In this document: in pieces, positions 44,524 to 55,646 of the stretch
How the letters are laid out: each line of letters opens with the position of its first letter
How positions within the stretch are numbered: the first letter of the stretch is position 1
Source: Desulfobulbaceae bacterium
GTDB taxonomy: Bacteria > Desulfobacterota > Desulfobulbia > Desulfobulbales > Desulfocapsaceae
Reading direction: 5' to 3'
Assembly (NCBI GenBank): GCA_024640625.1
Contig: JAHEER010000003.1
Span: 1-64,000, forward strand
DNA: 64,000 nt
Translations under genes and position numbers: made by a program
The notes under the pieces: generated by a model
The model's input: only the letters and a program-made list of their open reading frames with translations
Database searches by the model: none
What the model was told of the DNA's origin: nothing

Positions 44524-45387
44524 ATGACCATGACCATCAGGAGTGAGATAGTCAAACGCACCATGACCGCCTGCGCGGCCGTGAGTGGGTGCGCCCTGGC
44601 ACTCATGATTTCATCGGCGGTCTCAGCAGCGGATCCGCAAAGTGTGCAGACTGGCTTGACCACCACCATCCTGTCTCTTGAAAAGACCCGGAAGGCGGTG
44701 ATTGAGCAGCACCTGTCAGTTGCCGGCAGGGGCGAGCCTGCCTATTCCCGGGAAGAGGGCCTGCTTTTCGTTGCCTACCTCGAAGGCCGTATCACGCATT
44801 ATTGCCGAGCGCTCTACCTCAGTGGCGGCCCGCAAAGTCTGGAGGGCCTTCCGTGCGGGTCGCCAGCTCAACTGCTGGCCGGAGATCCGCGGTTCGCATC
44901 GGTTCCCGACTTGTCCGGGCAGACCAGCGGAGAAAAGGTGGCCCGCCTGGAGGAGGAATTCACCGCCGCCCTGGGAGAGTTCGATGAAATGCTGCTTCAG
45001 GAGCAGGAAAAGGTGGCCGCTCACATCCCTCGGCAGCGTGAAGACGGCAGTGGAGGTCAGGGGGGACAGCCAGGACAGGACGGTGAACCTGAGACAACAA
45101 CCGGGGGTGCCGGTGGAGGGCAGGAGCAGGCCGCTGGTGGCGCTGACATCGAGTCCGGCTCCCGGCAGAGCGGGGGAGGTCCGGAGCAGGGTGCGACCAA
45201 TGAGGGCGCCGGGCAGGGCAAAGCCGAAAGCCCGCAACGACCGGTCTCCCAGGGACCCAGGGAATTGTCAGAGGATGACGACGTGGTCGCCCGCCAGCTG
45301 CGCGAGGCGGCAGAGCAGGAGACCGACCCGGAAGTAAAAGAGAAGCTCTGGGAAGAATACCGGAAATACAAAGAAGGAACTAAATGA
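44524..45387 (+). CDS. secreted low-complexity protein, first gene of vWA-stator operon
   Basis: A 287-residue protein not recognised. A signal peptide is likely ('AAVSGCALALMISSAVSA', cleavage after Ala near residue 35). Residues about 40-165 are helical with two Cys ('THYCRALYLSGG', 'GLPCGS'). Residues about 170-255 are a Gly/Gln/Glu-rich disordered stretch, and the last 30 ('QETDPEVKEKLWEEYRKYKE') form a charged helix. It should be periplasmic. The stop overlaps the next ATG (ATGA). Two ATGs lie at the start; the first is used. Its operon position suggests it is part of the same envelope complex. Confidence 0.7.
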   Translation: MTMTIRSEIVKRTMTACAAVSGCALALMISSAVSAADPQSVQTGLTTTILSLEKTRKAVIEQHLSVAGRGEPAYSREEGLLFVAYLEGRITHYCRALYLSGGPQSLEGLPCGSPAQLLAGDPRFASVPDLSGQTSGEKVARLEEEFTAALGEFDEMLLQEQEKVAAHIPRQREDGSGGQGGQPGQDGEPETTTGGAGGGQEQAAGGADIESGSRQSGGGPEQGATNEGAGQGKAESPQRPVSQGPRELSEDDDVVARQLREAAEQETDPEVKEKLWEEYRKYKEGTK

Positions 45388-46679
45388 GACACCATATCTA
45401 CAGAGTCAGGCAACGGGAAAGATTCCTCCTAGCCATGCTGGGCTATGCACTTGTCATATTTGCCGCAGCCCTGATGAACGGCTGCGCATCCGTCCCGGGG
45501 AAGCAGGTTGCCGACCAGGTGGCTCCGCTGACCCCGGAACGCGAGCTCAGCGATGCGGAACTGCTCAACGTATCCATCCAGGTTTTCGATCCCGGGCAGT
45601 TGCCCGAAGATCCCGATAAACGAAAGGGGCTGTCGCCGGAAATAAGGGAGGCTGAGTCCCGTTTCGCCCCGATCCATCTCAAGCATACCCTCCAGAGAGC
45701 AGGGTATTGGGGGGTGGTCAGGGTTGTTCCCGACCAGGATGTGGGGTCAGAGGTATTGGTGCAGGGAGCGATACTCCATTCAGACGGCGAAAATGCGTCT
45801 CTTGAAATAACCGTAACCGACGCCAGAAACGTGGTTTGGTTTAAACGGGCCTACGCGGAAACGGCCAAAGCTGAAGAGCATATTGGTGTGGAGATGGAAA
45901 AAGAGGATGTGTTCCAGGATCTCTTTAATACCATCGCCAACGATCTTGCCGTTCACAGAAACAGCCTCAGCGCCGGGGAAATAGAGGAAATAAGACAGAT
46001 CGCCGCACTGAATTACGCCTTCTCGATGGCTCCCGATGCCTTTGGCCCCTATATCGCTACCGATGAAGATGGGCGGGTGTCACTGCAGAGATTGCCGGCC
46101 GAGGACGATCCGATGCTGGAGCGGGTGGAAGCAGTCAAGGTCCGGGACGATCTGCTGGTCGACACCATCAACGACTACTACGATATCTATTACCAGGATC
46201 TTTGGGAACCGTATTCCAACTGGCGCAGGTACCGGCACGAAGAGGTGACCATCTTGCGAAAACTTGAACGCCAGGCCCTGACTCGTCAGATTCTCGGTGT
46301 AACGGCGATTGTCGGGGCCATTGCCTTAGGGGCGGCCGGGGACTATGAAACCGCGGTTCGAACCAGGCCGCTCCAGGACGTGCTGATCGCCGGCGGGGCC
46401 TATTCGGTTTACAGTGGTCACCAGGTGCGTCAGGAAAGCAAGATCAACCAGGAGGTTATTGAAGAACTGGGCTCATCATTTTCCTCGGAGGCCGAACCGC
46501 TGACCATAGAAGTGGAAGGCCAGACGGTGCGGCTCACCGGTTCTGCCGAGCAGCAATACGCCACCTGGCGCAGCATGCTAAAACAGATATATGCGCAGGA
46601 AACGGGATTGATAGGTGAATCCGAGACCCTGCCGGAACTTGCGCCAGCGCCGTCAGAAGAGCTGAATGGACAGCAGTAA
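45384..46679 (+). CDS. lipoprotein of the vWA-stator operon
   Basis: A 431-residue protein of unknown function. A hydrophobic segment ends in lipobox-like 'ALMNGC', so Cys34 would be acylated. The body has a mixed domain ('VSIQVFDPGQLPEDPDKRKG', 'YWGVVRVVPDQDVGSEVLVQ', 'LEITVTDARNVVWFKRAY'), a helical stretch rich in Tyr/Asp ('TINDYYDIYYQDLWEPYSNW'), then a Gly/Ala-rich hydrophobic segment 'GVTAIVGAIALGAAG' that could insert in a membrane. It may be the outer-membrane end of the machine. It overlaps the gene before by four bases and the gene after by 14. Confidence 0.75.
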   Translation: MRHHIYRVRQRERFLLAMLGYALVIFAAALMNGCASVPGKQVADQVAPLTPERELSDAELLNVSIQVFDPGQLPEDPDKRKGLSPEIREAESRFAPIHLKHTLQRAGYWGVVRVVPDQDVGSEVLVQGAILHSDGENASLEITVTDARNVVWFKRAYAETAKAEEHIGVEMEKEDVFQDLFNTIANDLAVHRNSLSAGEIEEIRQIAALNYAFSMAPDAFGPYIATDEDGRVSLQRLPAEDDPMLERVEAVKVRDDLLVDTINDYYDIYYQDLWEPYSNWRRYRHEEVTILRKLERQALTRQILGVTAIVGAIALGAAGDYETAVRTRPLQDVLIAGGAYSVYSGHQVRQESKINQEVIEELGSSFSSEAEPLTIEVEGQTVRLTGSAEQQYATWRSMLKQIYAQETGLIGESETLPELAPAPSEELNGQQ

Positions 46680-48216
46680 ACGGCCGCCTGGTCGAGAATA
46701 TCTCAAAGAGCAGCTGGTCCCGCCGGGCGGCGGTCCGGCGCCGCTGCAGGCCGGCCGGCGAAAGGCTCTGCTGATCTTGGTGGCCCTTTTTGCCTTACTA
46801 CTGGGTGGGGCAGTCGGGGTATTGGTATTTCAGCCCGCCGACAAGACATCGCCGGTGTCGACCGCGCCGTCCCCGGAGCCGGCACCGGTGGCACCGGCCC
46901 CTGCAGCGGTTGAGAAACAGGTAAATCAGACGCAGCAGTCCGAGACTGTCGAACCGCAGACTTTGCAGCAGGTAGAGTCCGCTCCAGAGGAGGCGGCGGC
47001 CGGCGCGGCGGCACAAGCCAGAGAGCGGGTCTGGGCCCTCAAGATTGAAGCTGAAGCGCAGGGCGTCAGCAGCTGGGCCCCTGAAGAGTACGATCAAATC
47101 ATGGCCCAGCTCGAAGAGGCTGATGTTGTGCTGAACGAGGGGGCGGTGCAGGATGCTGCAGAGAGGTATGAACGGCTTTTAAACGATCTGCAAACCCTGC
47201 TCGGCACCAAAGAGCAGCGCTATCGGCAAGCCCTGGCAGCAGGGCAGCTCGGTTTGACGGACGAGCAGCCTGAGGTGGCCAGGGATCATTTCAATCGGGC
47301 GCTGGTCATCGAGCCAGCCAGCAGAGAGGCGCAGCAGGGCGTCGAACTGTCTGAAAAACTGTCCGGCACACTCACGGCGTATCACCACGCCCTGGAGCTT
47401 GAAGCGATGGGCCAGCTGGAGGAGGCGTTAGTGAAGCTGGAGACGATAATTAATGCCGGCTCAGCCTATGAGCCGGCGCGGGCAGCACGCGACAGGATAC
47501 AGGACCGGCTGAACCAGGCGGTATTCGAGGGTGAAATGAGCAGTCTTTTCTCGGCCCTGGAGGTCGAGGATTTTGCCTCCGCCCAGCGCTCATTGCAGAC
47601 CCTTGGCGGTTTGGGCATTCACCAGCAGGAGGTCGAACAGGCGGCGGTCCTGCTGGCGGAAAAACAAAGGCGCAGCGAAATCAATCGATTAAAAAGCCAA
47701 GCCGAGGAGTACCGGGCAGGGGAACAGTGGCCGCAGGCTCTCGAAACCTATGGGGAGATCTTACGCCTTGATGCCGACCTTCTGTTTGCCACCGCCGGTC
47801 AGCAGCAGTCAGCCAGGCGGGCGGAGCTTGACGCTTCTTTGCGCGATGCCGTTGAGCATTCCCAAAGGCTGCAGGATGCACCACAGCGCTCAGCCGCAGC
47901 CGGCCTGCTCAGCTTTGCCAAACAGATCGAACCGCAGGGGCCCAGGCTGCGGGCCCAGATAGAAGCACTTGAAACCCAGCTCGAGAAGTTCAGCACTCCG
48001 GTAACCGTCACACTTGAATCGGACAACCAGACCCATATCACCATCTATCACGTGGGTCGGATCGCCCCCTTCTTCACCAGGAAGATAGATCTGCACCCGG
48101 GCACCTACACCGTGGTCGGCAGCAGGGCCGGCTATCGGGATGTGAGGAAGAAGATAACCGTCGCCCCCGAGAACAGCGATAACCGCTATGAGATCAGGTG
48201 TGAGGAAGCGATTTGA
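46666..48216 (+). CDS. single-pass membrane protein with helical (TPR-like) repeats
   Basis: A 516-residue protein, N-in with one TM helix ('ALLILVALFALLLGGAVGVL', about residues 35-54). A Pro/Ala/Glu/Gln-rich linker follows, then from about 130 to 430 amphipathic helix pairs of TPR type ('AAERYERLLNDLQTLLG', 'ARDHFNRALVIEPASREAQQ', 'WPQALETYGEILRLDADLL'). The last 75 residues are a beta domain ('VTVTLESDNQTHITIYHVG', 'LHPGTYTVVGSRAGYRDVRK') of PEGA-like type. It is probably a periplasmic scaffold. It overlaps both neighbours, the latter by four bases. Confidence 0.8.
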   Translation: MDSSKRPPGREYLKEQLVPPGGGPAPLQAGRRKALLILVALFALLLGGAVGVLVFQPADKTSPVSTAPSPEPAPVAPAPAAVEKQVNQTQQSETVEPQTLQQVESAPEEAAAGAAAQARERVWALKIEAEAQGVSSWAPEEYDQIMAQLEEADVVLNEGAVQDAAERYERLLNDLQTLLGTKEQRYRQALAAGQLGLTDEQPEVARDHFNRALVIEPASREAQQGVELSEKLSGTLTAYHHALELEAMGQLEEALVKLETIINAGSAYEPARAARDRIQDRLNQAVFEGEMSSLFSALEVEDFASAQRSLQTLGGLGIHQQEVEQAAVLLAEKQRRSEINRLKSQAEEYRAGEQWPQALETYGEILRLDADLLFATAGQQQSARRAELDASLRDAVEHSQRLQDAPQRSAAAGLLSFAKQIEPQGPRLRAQIEALETQLEKFSTPVTVTLESDNQTHITIYHVGRIAPFFTRKIDLHPGTYTVVGSRAGYRDVRKKITVAPENSDNRYEIRCEEAI

Positions 48217-50639
48217 GTCGATTTATCACGATCACACAAGTGGATGGCGCGGAAGACCAATTTTCCGACAGGGATCTGCCGCTTACCATCGGCTCAGGTC
48301 CTGACAACCATATCCGCATGAAGGGCAGCGCTGAGCCTGCCGCCTATATCGATGACGCCCAGGGGCATCTGTTCATTCAACCGGCGGAACATCTTGCCGT
48401 GCCGCTGCTTCACAATGACCGCCAGTTGACCGAATCGGCCTGGCTCAAGTCTGGCGATACGCTGCGCTGCGGACCGTTCCTGGCCCGCTTCGAACGCAGT
48501 GGCGACCGCATCGTTTTCAGGGTTGCCGAGGAACGGGCCGCCGACTCACCGGTTTTGTCGCCCCCGCCCCACCCTCCGCCGGGACATATCGGCCAGAACA
48601 ACGGCGGCGATGAGCTTCCGGTGGATATCGCACCTCCGACCAAAACTTCGAGGAGAAAAAAAATAGGTGTCGCCGCCATCGCCTTTTTCTTTCTGGTCTT
48701 GAGTTGCGCAGTGGGCTATGTACTGCTGGCCCGTCCCCTTGAAGTCATCGTCTCGCCCGAGCCAGATTCGCTGAAGGTCTCAGGACGGTTTCCGGCTGTC
48801 AAGATCGGCGGCCGCTATCTGCTGCTGCCGGCTCTCTATTCAGTAGCCGTTGAAAAAAAGGGCTACCACGATTTTCGCACCGAAGTGCAGGTTGGCCAGG
48901 GCGGACAAAGTTCTCTTCAGGTGACTCTGGAGAAATTGCCGGGCCTGCTCAATCTTCGTGTCAGCCCGCCTGACGGGGTGCAGGTCTATTCTGCAGACCG
49001 TTTGCTGGGTACTACGCCGCCGGCTACGGTACCAATTGCCCCTGGTCCCCATACCCTCATCCTGAGCAAACCACGTTATCGCCCCTATCAGACCGAAATC
49101 GTTATCGAAGGCAAAGAGATTGTTCAGGATCTTGCAGTGTCACTCGAACCCGACTGGGCCGATGTCACCATCGGCTCTCACCCCAAGGGAGCAGAAGTGG
49201 TCGTCGACGGAACGGGCGCCGGTACCACTCCGCTGACTGTGCCTCTGCTCAGCGGCACCCACGACATCGAACTGCGCCTGGATTTGCATAGTCCTCACAG
49301 CCAGGCGATTACCGTCGAGGCTGGCGTCGAGGCGGATTATTTCATCGATTTGACGCCGCTGCCGGCACTGCTGTCGCTGACCAGCCTACCCGCTGGTGCC
49401 GCGGTCAGTATCGGCAACCAGTACAGGGGGACCACTCCGCTCTCTTTGACCCTGCCGTCAGGCATCGATCAGGATATCAGTCTGTCACGGCCGGGGTACC
49501 TCACCCTTAATCACCCTATTTCCCTTGCGCCAGGGGAGGAGCGGGATCTGCAGCTCACCCTGGAAGAGGAGCTGGGAGTAGTGTTTCTGACCACCACTCC
49601 AGCCCAGGCGACGGTCACTATCAACGGCACTTCCCGCGGTGCTCTGCAGGGCGCCCTGAAGCTGCCGGCCCGGGCCCAGACCTTCGTGGTCAGTGCGCCT
49701 GGCTACCAAACCGTATCTCGGACGCTTACCCCGAACCCCGCCTTCAGCCAGCAGCTGGTGATCGAGCTGCCGGCCGATGCAGCAGCCGGGCAAGCCGTGG
49801 CGCTTCCTCCGGAGAGCGGGGTGTCATTGACCACTGCGGCCGGACAGCGACTGCGGCTTATCCAGCCGTCGTCCTTTATGATGGGTGCTCCACGCAGGGA
49901 GCCGGGCCGCCGGGCCAACGAGCGTGAACGGCAGGTTATCATGAAACGGCCTTTTCTGATCAGTGAGACCCTGGTTACCAACGGCGAATTTAAAAAATTC
50001 AACGGAGGCCACCGGTCCGGAACCTACAAGGGCTATTCGCTCGATGGTGACAACCAGCCGGTGGTAAACGTGACCTGGGATCAGGCCGTTGCCTATCTCA
50101 ACTGGCTCAGCGAACAGGACAACCTGGAACCGTTTTACCAGAAACAGGACAACGGCTATCGCGCAGCTGCGCCGCCGACCAACGGCTACCGCTTGCCCAG
50201 CGAGGCAGAATGGGCCTACACCGCCAGGCAGGCAGGGGTTCAGGAGATACAGCGCTATCCCTGGCCGGGAGGTTTTCCGCCCCGCGCGGTGCTTGCCAAT
50301 CTCGGCGACGAGTCCGCCCGGACGCTGCTGCCGCGGGTCGTACCGGGCTATAACGATACGTTCCCGGTCACCTCTCCAGTCGGCCATTTCCCGGCCAACC
50401 CGTCGGGTCTCTTTGATATAGGCGGCAATGCGTCTGAATGGTGCCATGACTATTACAGCGCTTATACCGGAAGATTGGCAGAAGACATTGACCCGCTCGG
50501 GCCCGGCATCGGCACGCACCGGGTGATCAGAGGATCGAGCTGGAAAGATGCGACGCTTGCCGAAACCAGGCTGAGTTATCGGGCCTATCGCAAGGAAGCA
50601 CGCAACAGTGTCGGTTTCCGTATTGCCAGGTACCCATGA
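48213..50639 (+). CDS. FHA-like / TM / PEGA-repeat / FGE-sulfatase-domain protein
   Basis: An 808-residue multidomain protein. Residues 1-105 look FHA-like ('LPLTIGSGPDNHIRM', 'LTESAWLKSGDTLRCG'), though the SRxH phosphothreonine motif is missing. A Pro-rich linker leads to 'RRKK' and a TM helix (about 151-173). Outside are four PEGA-like repeats (for example 'VVVDGTGAGTTPLTVPLLSG'). From about 545 comes an FGE-sulfatase/SUMF1-like domain ('MMGAPRREPG', 'PVVNVTWDQAVAYLNWLSE', 'YRLPSEAEWAY', 'DIGGNASEWCHDYYS', 'VIRGSSWKD'), lacking the catalytic Cys pair of true FGE. It likely senses inside and binds sugar or peptidoglycan outside. The TTG start overlaps the previous stop. Confidence 0.85.
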   Translation: MSRFITITQVDGAEDQFSDRDLPLTIGSGPDNHIRMKGSAEPAAYIDDAQGHLFIQPAEHLAVPLLHNDRQLTESAWLKSGDTLRCGPFLARFERSGDRIVFRVAEERAADSPVLSPPPHPPPGHIGQNNGGDELPVDIAPPTKTSRRKKIGVAAIAFFFLVLSCAVGYVLLARPLEVIVSPEPDSLKVSGRFPAVKIGGRYLLLPALYSVAVEKKGYHDFRTEVQVGQGGQSSLQVTLEKLPGLLNLRVSPPDGVQVYSADRLLGTTPPATVPIAPGPHTLILSKPRYRPYQTEIVIEGKEIVQDLAVSLEPDWADVTIGSHPKGAEVVVDGTGAGTTPLTVPLLSGTHDIELRLDLHSPHSQAITVEAGVEADYFIDLTPLPALLSLTSLPAGAAVSIGNQYRGTTPLSLTLPSGIDQDISLSRPGYLTLNHPISLAPGEERDLQLTLEEELGVVFLTTTPAQATVTINGTSRGALQGALKLPARAQTFVVSAPGYQTVSRTLTPNPAFSQQLVIELPADAAAGQAVALPPESGVSLTTAAGQRLRLIQPSSFMMGAPRREPGRRANERERQVIMKRPFLISETLVTNGEFKKFNGGHRSGTYKGYSLDGDNQPVVNVTWDQAVAYLNWLSEQDNLEPFYQKQDNGYRAAAPPTNGYRLPSEAEWAYTARQAGVQEIQRYPWPGGFPPRAVLANLGDESARTLLPRVVPGYNDTFPVTSPVGHFPANPSGLFDIGGNASEWCHDYYSAYTGRLAEDIDPLGPGIGTHRVIRGSSWKDATLAETRLSYRAYRKEARNSVGFRIARYP

Positions 50640-50989
50640 AAAGAAAAAGATTGTCATTCTACTCAATCGCCGCGTTGCCGGCGAGAAATCTCCCCCGGAC
50701 GTTCTTCAGTGTCCGCGGAAAAATGTTTGAGCGCGTCCCCATTGTGCCCACCTGCCCACATATTGCCTGGTACCCGCTCTTGATTCTCATCATCTTGTTC
50801 ATGTTTTGCGGGCCTCTGCAGGCGGAAAAGGAATCGGAGCCGGCGGTTAAGGAGCCTGCGGGCGGCGAAGCTACCCGTGAACCTGCCCCGCCACAGAGCC
50901 CCGCCGAGACCGTCGTCTGGCCTCCACCGTTCAAGCCCAGTGAAGAGATTGGCGCCGATTCCCAAATTTCCTTTCCCACAGATATCTAG
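50636..50989 (+). CDS. small exported or membrane protein in the vWA-stator operon
   Basis: A 117-residue protein not recognised. After an unusually long basic N-terminus (about 45 residues) comes a hydrophobic segment 'WYPLLILIILFMFCGPL', either a TM anchor or late signal peptide, then a short Glu/Pro-rich periplasmic tail ending 'FPTDI'. The start overlaps the preceding stop (ATGA). A later ATG at 50723 would give a normal signal length. The stop lies seven bases before the MotA/TolQ/ExbB-like gene. Confidence 0.6.
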   Translation: MKRKRLSFYSIAALPARNLPRTFFSVRGKMFERVPIVPTCPHIAWYPLLILIILFMFCGPLQAEKESEPAVKEPAGGEATREPAPPQSPAETVVWPPPFKPSEEIGADSQISFPTDI

Positions 50990-50996
50990 GAGCGGT

Positions 50997-51806
50997 ATGA
51001 ACAGAGAACTGTTTCCCATCCAACTCGTCTATCAAGTGTTCACGCTGCTGATCGCCTTCATCATCGTGCATGCAGCCTATGTGACCGTTGTCCGGCCGAA
51101 GGCTGCGGAATTTATAACCTTTGAGCAGGAGCAGATTGCCCAGGACCCGAACTATGTGCAACAGCGTAATTTTTTCGTAGTTATCAAGGATTACGAGCAG
51201 GAAGCCTGTTTCATACTGATGCTCTGGGCGCTCGCCATCCTCGGCTACAAATCCATTTCGGCATATCGCCAGAAGCAAATCCTTGCCAATGATATCCTGG
51301 AGCTGCCGGCAACCCTTCCGGTGGGTCCGGAAGATACCAGAAGTCTGCTCGACCATCTCGCCGGGCTGCAGCCGCCGACCCGGGACTATTTACTACCGCG
51401 GGCTCTGCGCCTGGGGATTCAGCGTTTCGGCGTAACTGGCAACATCCAGGACTCGGCCACGGCCGTACGCGACTTGTGCGAATCTGAAATGGAACGGCAG
51501 GAGGCCGAACTCTCCATCATCAGATATATCGCCTGGGCCATTCCTTCGGTGGGGTTTATCGGTACAGTCAGAGGCATCGGCTCTGCCCTCGGTTTAGCCA
51601 ATCGTGCGGTCGAGGGCGATATTACCGGAGTGACCCAGAGCCTCGGAGTGGCATTCAACTCAACTTTCATTGCCCTGGTCATCTCCATCGTTCTGATGTT
51701 CTTCATTCATCAACTTCAGCTTTTTCAGGAACGGCTGGTGCTCGACAGCGAAGCCTACTGCAACGATAACCTCATCGCCCGTCTGCGCACCAGACCGCTG
51801 CCCTGA
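50997..51806 (+). CDS. MotA/TolQ/ExbB-family proton channel subunit
   Basis: A 269-residue inner-membrane protein with four likely TM helices (about 10-32, 68-85, 180-205, 228-250) and a cytoplasmic part between the second and third. The family signature is clear: 'WAIPSVGFIGTVRGIGSALG' (PxxGxxGTVxGI) and the last helix 'LGVAFNSTFIALVISIVLMF' with the conserved Thr that lines the ion path. Such subunits form pentamers around two ExbD/TolR/MotB-like subunits and turn proton or sodium flow into motion. Start: ATG at 50997 with TAGGAG upstream, preferred over the frame's earlier ATG at 50877. The two downstream genes supply the missing anchor partners. Confidence 0.92.
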   Translation: MNRELFPIQLVYQVFTLLIAFIIVHAAYVTVVRPKAAEFITFEQEQIAQDPNYVQQRNFFVVIKDYEQEACFILMLWALAILGYKSISAYRQKQILANDILELPATLPVGPEDTRSLLDHLAGLQPPTRDYLLPRALRLGIQRFGVTGNIQDSATAVRDLCESEMERQEAELSIIRYIAWAIPSVGFIGTVRGIGSALGLANRAVEGDITGVTQSLGVAFNSTFIALVISIVLMFFIHQLQLFQERLVLDSEAYCNDNLIARLRTRPLP

Positions 51807-51814
51807 GGTAGAAG

Positions 51815-52912
51815 ATGGCTTCTTTTACCCGGCGTCGGATATCGACTTTCAACCTCTCCTTCCTGGATATCATGTTCTGCGGTTTTGGCGCGGTGGTCCT
51901 GCTGGTACTGATACTCAACAGCCACACGCAGAGCCGCCGCAGCGAGCATGTTGCCGACAGGTCGGCTGAATTGCGGCAGGCGGAAATGGAGCAGCGGCTG
52001 ATGGGCGCCCATATCGAGCGGCAGCAGACCGAAATAGGCCGACTCGAACGTTCACTTGCAGCCCTGGAACAGACCCGCACAGCGTTTTTGAACGAGCTGG
52101 AAGAGATTGACAACAAAACAATCCCGCTGAGCCGGAACCAATCTGCCCAGGAGCGCATCGCGGCCTTGCAGGAAGAACTACTGCGCCTGGAGCAGGAACT
52201 GCAGGCCGTTGCCAGCCAGAAAGCTGCTGAGCGTGAGGCGGGCAGACAGGTCCGGGCTTTTGTCGGGACGGGAAACCGGCAGTACCTGACCGGATTGCGC
52301 CTCGACGGACAGAGGGTATTGATCCTGGTCGACTCGTCCGCTTCGATGCTGGACCGCAGAATCGTCGATGTGGTGCGCCGCAAGGTGCGTGACGAAAAGA
52401 GCCGCCGGACTGCACCCAAATGGCTCAAAGCGGTGGCAACGGTGGAGTGGCTGGTGGCCAATCTGCCCCAGACCAGTTCTATTCAGATCCACCATTTCAG
52501 CACTTCAGTGGTCCCGCTGGCCGCAGGCGAAACACCGGGCTGGCTGCCGGTTACCCGGTTCGACCAGGTTGATAGCCTGATCGAGACCCTGAAAATGGTG
52601 GCGCCGCTGGGCGGCACCAACCTCGAGGCACCCTTTCTGAAGGCCCGCTCTCTGACTCCACCACCGGACAATATAGTGCTCATCACCGACGGCCTTCCCA
52701 CCCTGGGAAAGCGGGGAGCGAGGTCGACTACGATTACTGGGCAGGCCAGGGTAAAACTTTACCGGGAAGCGATTAAAAGCCTGCCCGCCAAGGTTCCCGT
52801 CAACACCATTCTTTTTCCCATCGAAGGCGATCCCATGGCGGCGTCGCTGTTCTGGGAGCTGGCGGTGACCTCGGGGGGATCCTTTTTAACTCCGACCAGG
52901 GACTGGCCATGA
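51815..52912 (+). CDS. vWA-domain protein with ExbD/TolR-like TM anchor (first)
   Basis: A 365-residue protein. Near the N-terminus is 'FNLSFLDIMFCGFGAVVLLV' (residues about 12-31), a TM helix with an Asp at its start, as the ion-carrying Asp of ExbD, TolR and MotB. A coiled coil (about 45-140) leads to a von Willebrand factor A domain with an intact MIDAS: 'LVDSSASM' (DxSxS), a Thr in 'GGTNLEAPF' and 'IVLITDGLPT'. The vWA part should be periplasmic and bind a protein partner through a metal ion. It begins eight bases after the channel gene and overlaps the next. Confidence 0.9.
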   Translation: MASFTRRRISTFNLSFLDIMFCGFGAVVLLVLILNSHTQSRRSEHVADRSAELRQAEMEQRLMGAHIERQQTEIGRLERSLAALEQTRTAFLNELEEIDNKTIPLSRNQSAQERIAALQEELLRLEQELQAVASQKAAEREAGRQVRAFVGTGNRQYLTGLRLDGQRVLILVDSSASMLDRRIVDVVRRKVRDEKSRRTAPKWLKAVATVEWLVANLPQTSSIQIHHFSTSVVPLAAGETPGWLPVTRFDQVDSLIETLKMVAPLGGTNLEAPFLKARSLTPPPDNIVLITDGLPTLGKRGARSTTITGQARVKLYREAIKSLPAKVPVNTILFPIEGDPMAASLFWELAVTSGGSFLTPTRDWP

Positions 52913-53904
52913 AAAGACGAAGACGGTCCATAGAGGTGTTCAACCTGTCCTTTCTCGATGTAATATCCTGCGGATTCGGCGCCATCGTGCTGCTGCTGGT
53001 AATCATGAAAATATCGGAGCCCGCGCTGATCGAAGAATCAACCAAAGATATTTCCCTCAGCATCAATCGGATCCGGTCCGAGGTCGTCTCTCTCAGGGAT
53101 CACTCAGCCAGACTCTACCAAACCAGTGAAGAGCTGCGCACTACTGAGCACACCCTGCTCGAGCAGATTGGCGAGCTTAACCTTCAGCTTGCCGGAGCGC
53201 GGGAACAGCAGAAAAACCTGCTGGTCCGCTATTCTTCCCAGGAGGCAATCATTGAGCAATTGTATCGGGCCCAGCAGGAGCTTACCGAGGAGATGCTTCG
53301 GCTGCAACGGCAGAAATCTGCCACTCCCATAAATGCTCCCATCGGCGGCATCCCGGTGGACAGCGAATTTATCATCTTCGTGATCGACACTTCCGGGTCC
53401 ATGCAGCAGTTTGCCTGGCCGGCGGTGCGCAAAAAAATGCAGGAGATTCTTTCCATCTATCCACGGGTCCAGGGAATTCAGGTGATGAACGATATGGGAG
53501 ACTATATGTTTTCCCAATACGCGGGCCGCTGGATACAGGATACGCCGGCGCGCAGAAAAGCCATACTGGAGAGGCTCAGAAGCTGGACGCCTTTCTCTAA
53601 TTCGAGTCCGGTGGAGGGCATTACCGCGGCCATCAGGAGGTTTTACGCAGCGGACAAAAAAATAAGCATCTACGTGTTCGGTGACGATTTTTCCCGCGGT
53701 TCCATCCAGGAGGTGGTCGACACCGTCGATTCAATAAATCGATCGCTCGGAGACGGCCCCCGCCGGGTGCGCATCCACGCTGTCGGTTTCCCGGTCTTGT
53801 TCGGCCATGCCGGAGCCGATATGAACGTGGCCCGGTTTGCTGCCCTGATGCGTCGCCTGGCCGAGGACAATGACGGCAGTTTTGTCGGCCTGCCTGAGCT
53901 GTAG
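52909..53904 (+). CDS. vWA-domain protein with ExbD/TolR-like TM anchor (second)
   Basis: A 331-residue paralogue of the preceding protein. The anchor 'FNLSFLDVISCGFGAIVLLL' is nearly identical to that of the first, including the Asp, while the rest has diverged. A coiled coil (about 48-140) precedes a vWA domain with 'FVIDTSGSM' (DxSxS), 'NSSPVEGITAAI' and 'ISIYVFGDDFSRG'. A pair of unequal anchors suits the two central subunits of an ExbBD-like 5:2 stator, so a heterodimer is plausible. The start overlaps the previous stop (ATGA). It is the last gene of the operon; 195 bases follow before the PLD gene. Confidence 0.9.
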   Translation: MKRRRRSIEVFNLSFLDVISCGFGAIVLLLVIMKISEPALIEESTKDISLSINRIRSEVVSLRDHSARLYQTSEELRTTEHTLLEQIGELNLQLAGAREQQKNLLVRYSSQEAIIEQLYRAQQELTEEMLRLQRQKSATPINAPIGGIPVDSEFIIFVIDTSGSMQQFAWPAVRKKMQEILSIYPRVQGIQVMNDMGDYMFSQYAGRWIQDTPARRKAILERLRSWTPFSNSSPVEGITAAIRRFYAADKKISIYVFGDDFSRGSIQEVVDTVDSINRSLGDGPRRVRIHAVGFPVLFGHAGADMNVARFAALMRRLAEDNDGSFVGLPEL

Positions 53905-54098
53905 GGCGCTACCGGGCACGCAGTTCCAGGTTTGTAAAGCCCCATGCCCACTGGTGGTGCCCGGCGATTCAGGCTGCCCTATGATGGTTAAGAAGTTTGG
54001 CGTCCGGAGGAAAAAGTCTTTCACTTCGGACCTACCTGCGATAGATTTTCAGCCGGTGGTCCAACGACTCTTCCCCATTCATCTTAATTGAGGTGATT

Positions 54099-55646
54099 AT
54101 GCACTTGTTTTCTGCTCGTTTCCTGCTTCTGCTCTATCTGGGCGGCTTGGCTTTACTGTTTTCCGGCTGTGCGTCCCTGCCGCCGCGTCCGGAACTGGCT
54201 CACGAGCCGGCCCTGGCTCCCGCTTCGTCGGGACCCGTGGCAATGCTCGGTGATCGATTTATGAGGGCCAATGGCGCCGAGGCCTCCGGCTTTCATCTGT
54301 TGATTGATGCCCGTGAGGCCCTGGATGCGCGTCTGGCCTTGATCGACTCGGCAACCAGCGCCATCGATTTACAGTATTACATCTGGGCAGGCGATGCCGT
54401 CGGGGTGCTGCTCTTTGATCGCCTACTCAAGGCGGCAGACCGCGGTGTCAAGGTGCGGATAATCGTCGACGATATCTGGCTTGGCTCCACCACCAAAAAT
54501 CTGGCCGCCCTGAATGCTCATCCCGATCTGGAGATCAGGATTTTCAATCCGAACCCGGGGCGGGATTCAACCATCGGCGGGCTGCTGAATATGCTGGCCA
54601 GTTTTCAGGCTCTGAATCAACGCATGCACAACAAATTGATGATCGTTGACAACCAGGCGATAATCGTCGGCGGCAGGAATCAGGGCAACGAGTATTTCGG
54701 CCTCGGCAAAGAGTTCAACTTCCTCGATGTGGATGTCATTGCTCTGGGCGGCGTGGTGGAGGAGAGCTCCGATGCCTATGATCAGTACTGGAATGACAAT
54801 TCGGTCTATCCGCTGACCCGCTGGATAGACAAGTTGCCGGATAATACGCTTGATGAAGTGCGTTCAGGAGTCGCTGAACTGGTTGAAAAATTTCGTCCGC
54901 AACTGACGGCCTATTCCGTGCAGCCCCGCGACTGGCAGCACTGGCTTGATATGCTCGAGGAAAACCTGCTCGTCGGTGAAGCTCACTTTCTCCAGGACGA
55001 CCCTGTCCAGATCGAAGGCAAGAGTTATCGGTTGATCGATATGATCTCCTATTTCTCTGATCCCACCAGGGAAGAACTTCTGTTGACAAGTCCCTATCTG
55101 ATTCCGGTGGGCAGCAGCCTCGAGGATTTGCAGAAGTTGATAAACAAAGGGGTAAGAGCGAAGATAATCACCAACTCCCTGGCTTCGACCAACCACACCC
55201 TGGTCAACAGCCATTACAAAAAGTACCGCAAGCCGATCCTGGCCACCGGTGTCAATCTGTTCGAGTTCCGCCATCAGCCTGCGGGGACGATCAGGAACTG
55301 GGCCGATGTCGAGCCGGTGAGGGCCCCGTTTATTTCTCTGCATGCCAAGACCATCGTCTCCGACCGGCGTCTCTGCTTTATCGGTTCTCTCAATTTCGAT
55401 CCCCGGGCCATTGTCATCAATTCAGAGAATGGGTTGCTCATAGACTCGGTAGAACTGGCCGATGAACTTGCTGATTTTATCGATTACCTGACTGCGCCGG
55501 AAAATGCCTATGAAGTGACGATTCAAAATAATCGTCTACAGTGGAAGTCATCGGACCGCACCATCGACGCCCAGCCCGCCCGTGGAGCCATGCAGGGTTT
55601 CGCTGATCTTTTTTGGGGGCTGCTGCCCATTGAAAGTCAACTTTAA
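54099..55646 (+). CDS. phospholipase D-family lipoprotein (cardiolipin-synthase-C-like)
   Basis: A 515-residue protein with a lipoprotein signal ('LGGLALLFSGC'). Two HKD motifs are intact: 'HNKLMIVDNQAIIVGGRN' and 'HAKTIVSDRRLCFIGSLNFD'. Surrounding segments 'AIDLQYYIWAGDAVG', 'GVKVRIIVDDIW' and 'LLLTSPYLIPVG' match the ClsC/YmdC group, which transfers phosphatidyl groups to form cardiolipin at the periplasmic face. The ATG at 54099 has GAGGTG just upstream and is preferred to a GTG at 54093. It stands 194 bases after the vWA operon and is probably a separate unit. Confidence 0.93.
   Translation: MHLFSARFLLLLYLGGLALLFSGCASLPPRPELAHEPALAPASSGPVAMLGDRFMRANGAEASGFHLLIDAREALDARLALIDSATSAIDLQYYIWAGDAVGVLLFDRLLKAADRGVKVRIIVDDIWLGSTTKNLAALNAHPDLEIRIFNPNPGRDSTIGGLLNMLASFQALNQRMHNKLMIVDNQAIIVGGRNQGNEYFGLGKEFNFLDVDVIALGGVVEESSDAYDQYWNDNSVYPLTRWIDKLPDNTLDEVRSGVAELVEKFRPQLTAYSVQPRDWQHWLDMLEENLLVGEAHFLQDDPVQIEGKSYRLIDMISYFSDPTREELLLTSPYLIPVGSSLEDLQKLINKGVRAKIITNSLASTNHTLVNSHYKKYRKPILATGVNLFEFRHQPAGTIRNWADVEPVRAPFISLHAKTIVSDRRLCFIGSLNFDPRAIVINSENGLLIDSVELADELADFIDYLTAPENAYEVTIQNNRLQWKSSDRTIDAQPARGAMQGFADLFWGLLPIESQL

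Follow-up and report, generated by a model that had tools for sequence, protein, structure and literature searches.

Flagella and gliding, iron uptake, division and secretion draw their power from proton-driven 5:2 motors. A study of June 2025 described vWA proteins that come in heterologous pairs, have a pore helix like that of TolR/ExbD and are encoded in tight linkage with tolQ-like genes, an Idiomarina family being named there; the motor predicted from them consists of a TolQ-like pentamer with a vWA axle pair and no TolR/ExbD, for which pentamer:dimer complexes were modelled (PMC12204202). In the type IX system, PorK, GldK and GldJ have an FGE fold, that of PorK being a dead one which acts as a docking hub (PMC12421860), and GltG of the Agl-Glt machinery is a bitopic FHA protein (PMC3169522). 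An operon of eight genes in which a TolQ-like channel and a vWA pair are accompanied by a set of envelope proteins was found in a 64,000 bp stretch of DNA (hereafter the window) from a Desulfobulbaceae bacterium (contig JAHEER010000003.1, positions 1 to 64,000; assembly GCA_024640625.1, 4.29 Mb in 231 contigs). The operon spans positions 44524–53904 and all of its features are on the plus strand. It is read here, with a probability of roughly 0.6, as a proton-driven trans-envelope force transducer.

The eight open reading frames (ORFs) are closely packed, with five overlapping junctions, one gap of 7 bases and one of 8 bases. The preliminary description of this stretch had claimed eight genes overlapping or at most 8 bases apart, and all of these ORFs were recovered in position and on the same strand; its reading of a channel, paired vWA proteins and PEGA, FGE-like, helical-repeat and lipoprotein partners in a conserved operon is borne out by domain calls and co-conservation. 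The operon has a TolQ-like gene adjoining a heterologous vWA pair, a pore-helix aspartate, no tolR/exbD neighbour and no SHLS helix, as have the TPH-vWA motors of PMC12204202, with which it also shares a threonine ring, an aspartate pair and an occurrence in Proteobacteria. No TolR/ExbD-like gene was detected in the cluster by Pfam scan, and no TolA/TonB-type SHLS motif is present in it except for a chance-like SHTQS in the window copy of gene 7. The earlier claim that vWA domains on an axle are without precedent does not hold, since PMC12204202 describes such pairs. What sets the operon apart from the main text of that study is that no tail like that of gene 5 (see below) is described there and that no FHA, PEGA or sulfatase-like partner is mentioned. 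The combination of PEGA, FHA and FGE domains with a TolQ-like channel was not found in the literature, most subscription papers and preprints being outside this search. Of the findings which the preliminary description had named as refuting it, a published account thus exists for the motor core, as a prediction, but not for the complete eight-gene machine, which is apparently new.

A collection scan with gene 8 returned at least 261 related places, of which 80 were kept for profile searches. All eight genes were found together in 45 of the kept loci and 44 of these keep the order 1–8, a recurrence far beyond chance; the counts are of loci and not of independent events, L016 and L026 being duplicates of one genome and L020 and L028 of another. 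By record title the carriers belong to the Desulfobacterota, Gamma- and Alphaproteobacteria, Phycisphaerales, Myxococcales and Vicinamibacteria. One carrier that can be cultivated is Eilatimonas milleporae. Relatives from the same family have the cluster in the same order, with some copies cut by contig ends, and the nearest named relative among the fetched loci is Desulfofustis sp. Site_B28, whose gene 8 is 82% identical. The exception to the gene order is a Myxococcales locus (L079, 6234–18697), in which genes 5–8 with a ninth gene and genes 1–4 form adjacent modules on opposite strands, an arrangement which suggests a separate motor module and envelope module. The gene 8 profile matched 45 of 258 genomes of the window's class (a few weakly), and in Gammaproteobacteria the channel profile matched 36 of 369 genomes (~10%) at E <= 1e-20, with 31 of these below 1e-80. 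Close channel matches are rarer elsewhere (2/199 in the phylum of L076 and 3/190 in the class of L075). Two copies are disrupted, with genes 7 and 8 fragmented over a number of ORFs in genome G030 (L025) and gene 4 split in two in L019; either may reflect sequencing errors or a decaying copy.

Gene 6 (P0006, 269 aa; 50997–51806, beginning with the ATG at 50997, the mechanical ORF opening earlier at 50877) encodes a TolQ/ExbB-type channel subunit, as indicated by both Pfam and predicted fold, and belongs to the MotA/TolQ/ExbB proton-channel family. It matches MotA_ExbB (PF01618) with E=6.6e-14 and 52.2 bits against a cut-off of 22.9. When its AlphaFold2 model (predicted local distance difference test score, pLDDT, 91) was compared using Foldseek, only ExbB and TolQ were among the top matches (probability 1.00; TM-scores reaching 0.58/0.70), with ZorA and MotA/PomA ranking behind them. 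The pore threonines T190 (GTVRGI) and T223 (AFNST), encoded within 51564–51665, are present in 100% of 75 aligned sequences, and T190 was placed by hhalign profile alignment on the threonine in the GTV stretch of TolQ from the same genome (GTVWGI). As the genome encodes separate TolQR and MotAB elsewhere, the operon represents an extra motor.

Genes 7 (P0007, 365 aa; 51815–52912) and 8 (P0008, 331 aa; 52909–53904) are paralogous, being ~31% identical across their first 179 residues, and each is predicted to consist of a single pore helix, a coiled coil and, as its head, a vWA domain. The pore-helix aspartate is invariant in both families (D18 in 88 gene 7 sequences and D17 in 89 gene 8 sequences). 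The metal ion-dependent adhesion site (MIDAS) motif is DSSAS in gene 7 (52331–52345), completed by T268 (95%) and D292 (100%), and DTSGS in gene 8 (53386–53400), probably completed by S232/S233 and D259; the DxSxS and distal aspartate are present in 100% of each family. Since the window copies match VWA_2 below the curated cut-off (5e-5 for gene 7 and 9e-5 for gene 8), the assignment of a vWA domain with a metal site rests on the motif and on homologues, 29 of 29 scanned gene 7 homologues matching VWA_2 (best 1.7e-9). Searched against the PDB, the vWA profiles matched coiled coils for the most part and did not retrieve a vWA chain. The likeness to ExbD/TolR anchors proposed in the preliminary description stands as one of position, each protein having one N-terminal helix with an aspartate, and does not extend to detectable sequence kinship with TolR: ExbD/TolR (PF02472) was not matched by Pfam in genes 7 and 8 or their homologues, and membership of TolR by sequence was rejected after an hhalign comparison with the genome's own TolR (as a single sequence) was not significant.

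Gene 5 (P0005, 117 aa; 50636–50989) is predicted to be a small secreted or anchored protein with a signal peptide or anchor, a variable linker and a near-invariant C-terminal tail, PSEEIGADSQISFPTDI-COOH (50936–50986), which has an FPxDI end. The label of a small membrane protein first given to it understates it, as few features of the operon are as highly conserved as this tail. In 65 sequences the proline and the terminal isoleucine are found in all, the penultimate residue, the last aspartate, in 63 and the earlier aspartate in 62. Synonymous codons vary within the tail and the length of the protein also varies, the tail being conserved at the protein level throughout. Six loci were missed by the gene 5 profile, and a related tail was found in them on reading, one of which ends in DM and not DI. 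Within the genome the signature of FPxDI plus a stop codon was found in gene 5 only (a second match to the pattern is followed by TGG, not a stop), and a reading of the tail as a general substrate tag was rejected on this ground.

The envelope partners are encoded by genes 1–4. Gene 1 (P0001, 287 aa; 44524–45387) has a Sec-type signal peptide, an N-terminal domain, a variable low-complexity linker and a C-terminal helix with a strongly conserved motif, DDDxVARQLREAAExETDPExKxKLWEEYRKYK (51 sequences). Gene 2 (P0002, 431 aa; 45384–46679) is a lipoprotein with an invariant Cys34 and alanine at +2, which would be consistent with the outer membrane. Its AlphaFold2 model (pLDDT 85.6) shows an alpha/beta domain followed by a 74-residue helix and a hydrophobic glycine-rich helical pair; on model comparison the alpha/beta domain resembles PelC (probability 1.00, E=2.5e-3), the TolB N-domain and LptE. 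Gene 3 (P0003, 516 aa; 46666–48216) has one transmembrane helix near residues 36–54 and TPR-like helical repeats, Pfam TPR being matched by the homologue from L072, and gives a weak PEGA match at its C-terminus. Gene 4 (P0004, 808 aa; 48213–50639) starts with TTG and comprises an FHA-like N-domain, a transmembrane helix at ~153–171, five PEGA stretches (Pfam, 1e-44) and a C-terminal FGE-sulfatase match (9.6e-38).

The FGE-like domain of gene 4 (49860–50630) is without the conserved catalytic cysteine pair and is predicted to be non-enzymatic. No conserved cysteine was found in this region in 66 sequences, the cysteines at columns 629 and 744 being only partly conserved; an active formylglycine-generating enzyme was therefore rejected and the domain is probably catalytically dead. 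PorKLMN/GldKLMN offers a parallel, as its 5:2 motor, powered by protons, is paired with an FGE-fold docking hub that has no catalytic activity. There, however, the FGE fold is on an outer-membrane lipoprotein ring, whereas in the operon it is on an inner-membrane PEGA protein and the motor has a TolQ-like channel and vWA axle heads. Membership of the type IX PorKLMN system was rejected, the GldK match being partial and below the cut-off and GldL and GldM being unmatched. The FHA-like domain claimed for gene 4 (48213–48530, predicted to be cytosolic) is a weak call: PF00498 did not match the window copy and matched 2 of 28 homologues at E~0.003, and FHA domains were the top PDB matches of the N-domain profile with E=0.03–0.5.

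In many loci (~30; e.g., L058:7494–8918) the channel and the first vWA gene were found to be separated by a ninth gene. One branch has a clear FHA domain (5.6e-12) at the C-terminus of the ninth protein, which is degenerate or missing there in others. An ASKHA/Hsp70-like reading of the N-terminal domain of this protein (E~0.9 to Hsp70/DnaK) was set aside as a weak hint and remains a guess. The ninth gene mostly accompanies those forms of gene 4 which are without the FHA-like N-domain, 33 loci having the long form and no ninth gene, 26 having the short form and a ninth gene, and 7 being exceptions (related loci, uncorrected for phylogeny). Of these seven, both parts occur together in L058 and are missing together in L024 and L088; L078, L100 and L104 are apparent artefacts of ORF starts and L101 is a fragment. 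More distant relatives of the channel (E 1e-15 to 1e-37) occur in Gammaproteobacteria, in Alphaproteobacteria and in the phylum of L076. These relatives (L112, L113, L114, L116, L132 and L134) have as neighbours genes of the FHA, PP2C phosphatase, Ser/Thr kinase, PEGA and trypsin-like kinds, and most of the loci also encode a vWA protein with a similar anchor. The distant relatives possibly form a phosphorylation-controlled motor class, and their FHA, PP2C and kinase neighbours suggest that phospho-control may be a recurring theme.

Among the fetched loci no conserved flanking genes were found outside close relatives, except for a gammaproteobacterial tail. The window operon is flanked upstream by a DUF523-like gene and directly downstream by a phospholipase-D-like (cardiolipin-synthase-like) lipoprotein gene (54093–55646), both named from sequence with no family search. 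As these flanks are common to close relatives only, the block ends where the preliminary description had placed its boundaries. In some Gammaproteobacteria (L072:11068–13826, L092, L099, L080 and L122) the operon is followed by two lipoprotein genes and an M48 peptidase-like gene, the latter not in L080.

The reading as a force transducer draws on the co-conservation of the eight genes, the channel fold, the invariant motor and metal-site residues, the missing conserved FGE cysteines and the gene 5 tail, all observed computationally. Gene 6 would form a TolQ-like pentamer, to which genes 7 and 8 would contribute a heterodimeric axle made up of their pore helices inside it, turned by protons passing T190/T223 and the two helix aspartates. 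Coiled-coil stalks would hold both vWA heads in the periplasm, where their metal sites may take hold of an acidic ligand, for which the FPxDI tail of gene 5 is the leading candidate and would serve as a tethered regulator or hook. Inner-membrane scaffolding is the putative role of genes 3 and 4, and the five PEGA domains of gene 4 may form a rod that holds out the FGE-like domain, dead and used for docking, in the direction of the outer membrane, where the gene 2 lipoprotein, with its PelC/TolB/LptE-like domain, would receive or anchor the force. A cytosolic FHA-like domain, in gene 4 or the ninth protein, probably reads a phospho-threonine switch. The stoichiometry, the rotation, the ligand, the location and the object that is moved are what we infer from these components. 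A more specific form of the proposal, in which metal-dependent gripper heads bind the Asp-bearing gene 5 tail and the turning axle pulls in a tethered peptide or lets go of it under cytosolic FHA phospho-control, is speculative and on balance doubtful. We know of no described 5:2 motor which acts on a peptide ligand via metal-site heads on its own axle.

Several points weigh against the transducer. Its support is computational throughout, the predicted structures being those of monomers. The Foldseek E-values of the gene 6 model are modest (best 1.3e-3), no solved structure was matched when the channel profile was searched against PDB sequences, and the correspondence of T223 with TolQ was made by eye, the confident profile alignment spanning the T190 region only. 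In addition, no homology to TolR is detectable in the pore helices of the two vWA proteins, the FHA-like call in gene 4 is weak, the pairing of the gene 5 tail with a vWA metal site is a conjecture, and complete cleavage might leave the gene 5 protein free.

The motor might instead energise the insertion, extraction or secretion of a lipoprotein, polysaccharide or protein, in outer-membrane biogenesis, quality control or export. This is rather unlikely: the resemblance of gene 2 to PelC and LptE points in this direction, as do the two further lipoproteins and, in most cases, the M48 peptidase of the gammaproteobacterial set, but that tail is limited to some Gammaproteobacteria and the cluster has no transport channel or ABC ATPase. 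A gliding or adhesion machine like Agl-Glt or GldLM, in which adhesins of the outer membrane or the surface would be pulled along by the motor and coupled to it through genes 2 and 4, is also considered unlikely, even though gliding was proposed for the first class of vWA transducers (PMC12204202). A single channel and a pair of distinct axle proteins have their counterparts in AglR and AglQ/AglS of Myxococcus, the bitopic FHA partner parallels GltG (PMC3169522), TPR proteins occur in both, and the FGE-fold partner parallels GldK/PorK (PMC12421860). Against this, genes 7 and 8 do not have the ExbD/TolR domain (PF02472) of AglQ/S, the C-domain of GltG is TonB-like and not PEGA/FGE, and among the recurrent neighbours in the fetched loci there is no conserved gene for a surface adhesin, a track or an outer-membrane barrel.

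It is quite improbable that the operon is a second, diverged Tol/Ton-like system which merely stabilises the outer membrane by no new mechanism. The channel fold and the TolB-N-like domain of gene 2 are shared with TolQRAB-Pal, but the cluster has no TolA/TonB, TolB propeller, Pal or TolR and the genome has its own TolQR. An anti-phage motor of the Zorya type is extremely improbable and was rejected on the PADLOC, plasmid and viral searches, as the 5:2 motor of ZorAB, a common MotA/ExbB-type channel with axle proteins, a weak ZorA match (E=0.0064) and the presence of ZorAB among the Foldseek matches are set against vWA heads in place of Zorya effectors, no relatives of ZorC, ZorD or ZorE in the cluster or its neighbours, remaining PADLOC matches which are weak coiled-coil matches of gene 7, absence from 72,556 plasmids and (by a close-relative search) from viral contigs, and a gene order that is stable across phyla and not variable.

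Environmental Proteobacteria have a large uncharacterised class of proton-driven motors. With the parts list of the eight-gene operon, its invariant residues and the gene 5 tail, what had been a structural prediction in the literature becomes a system whose components are defined and which is open to point-mutation tests.

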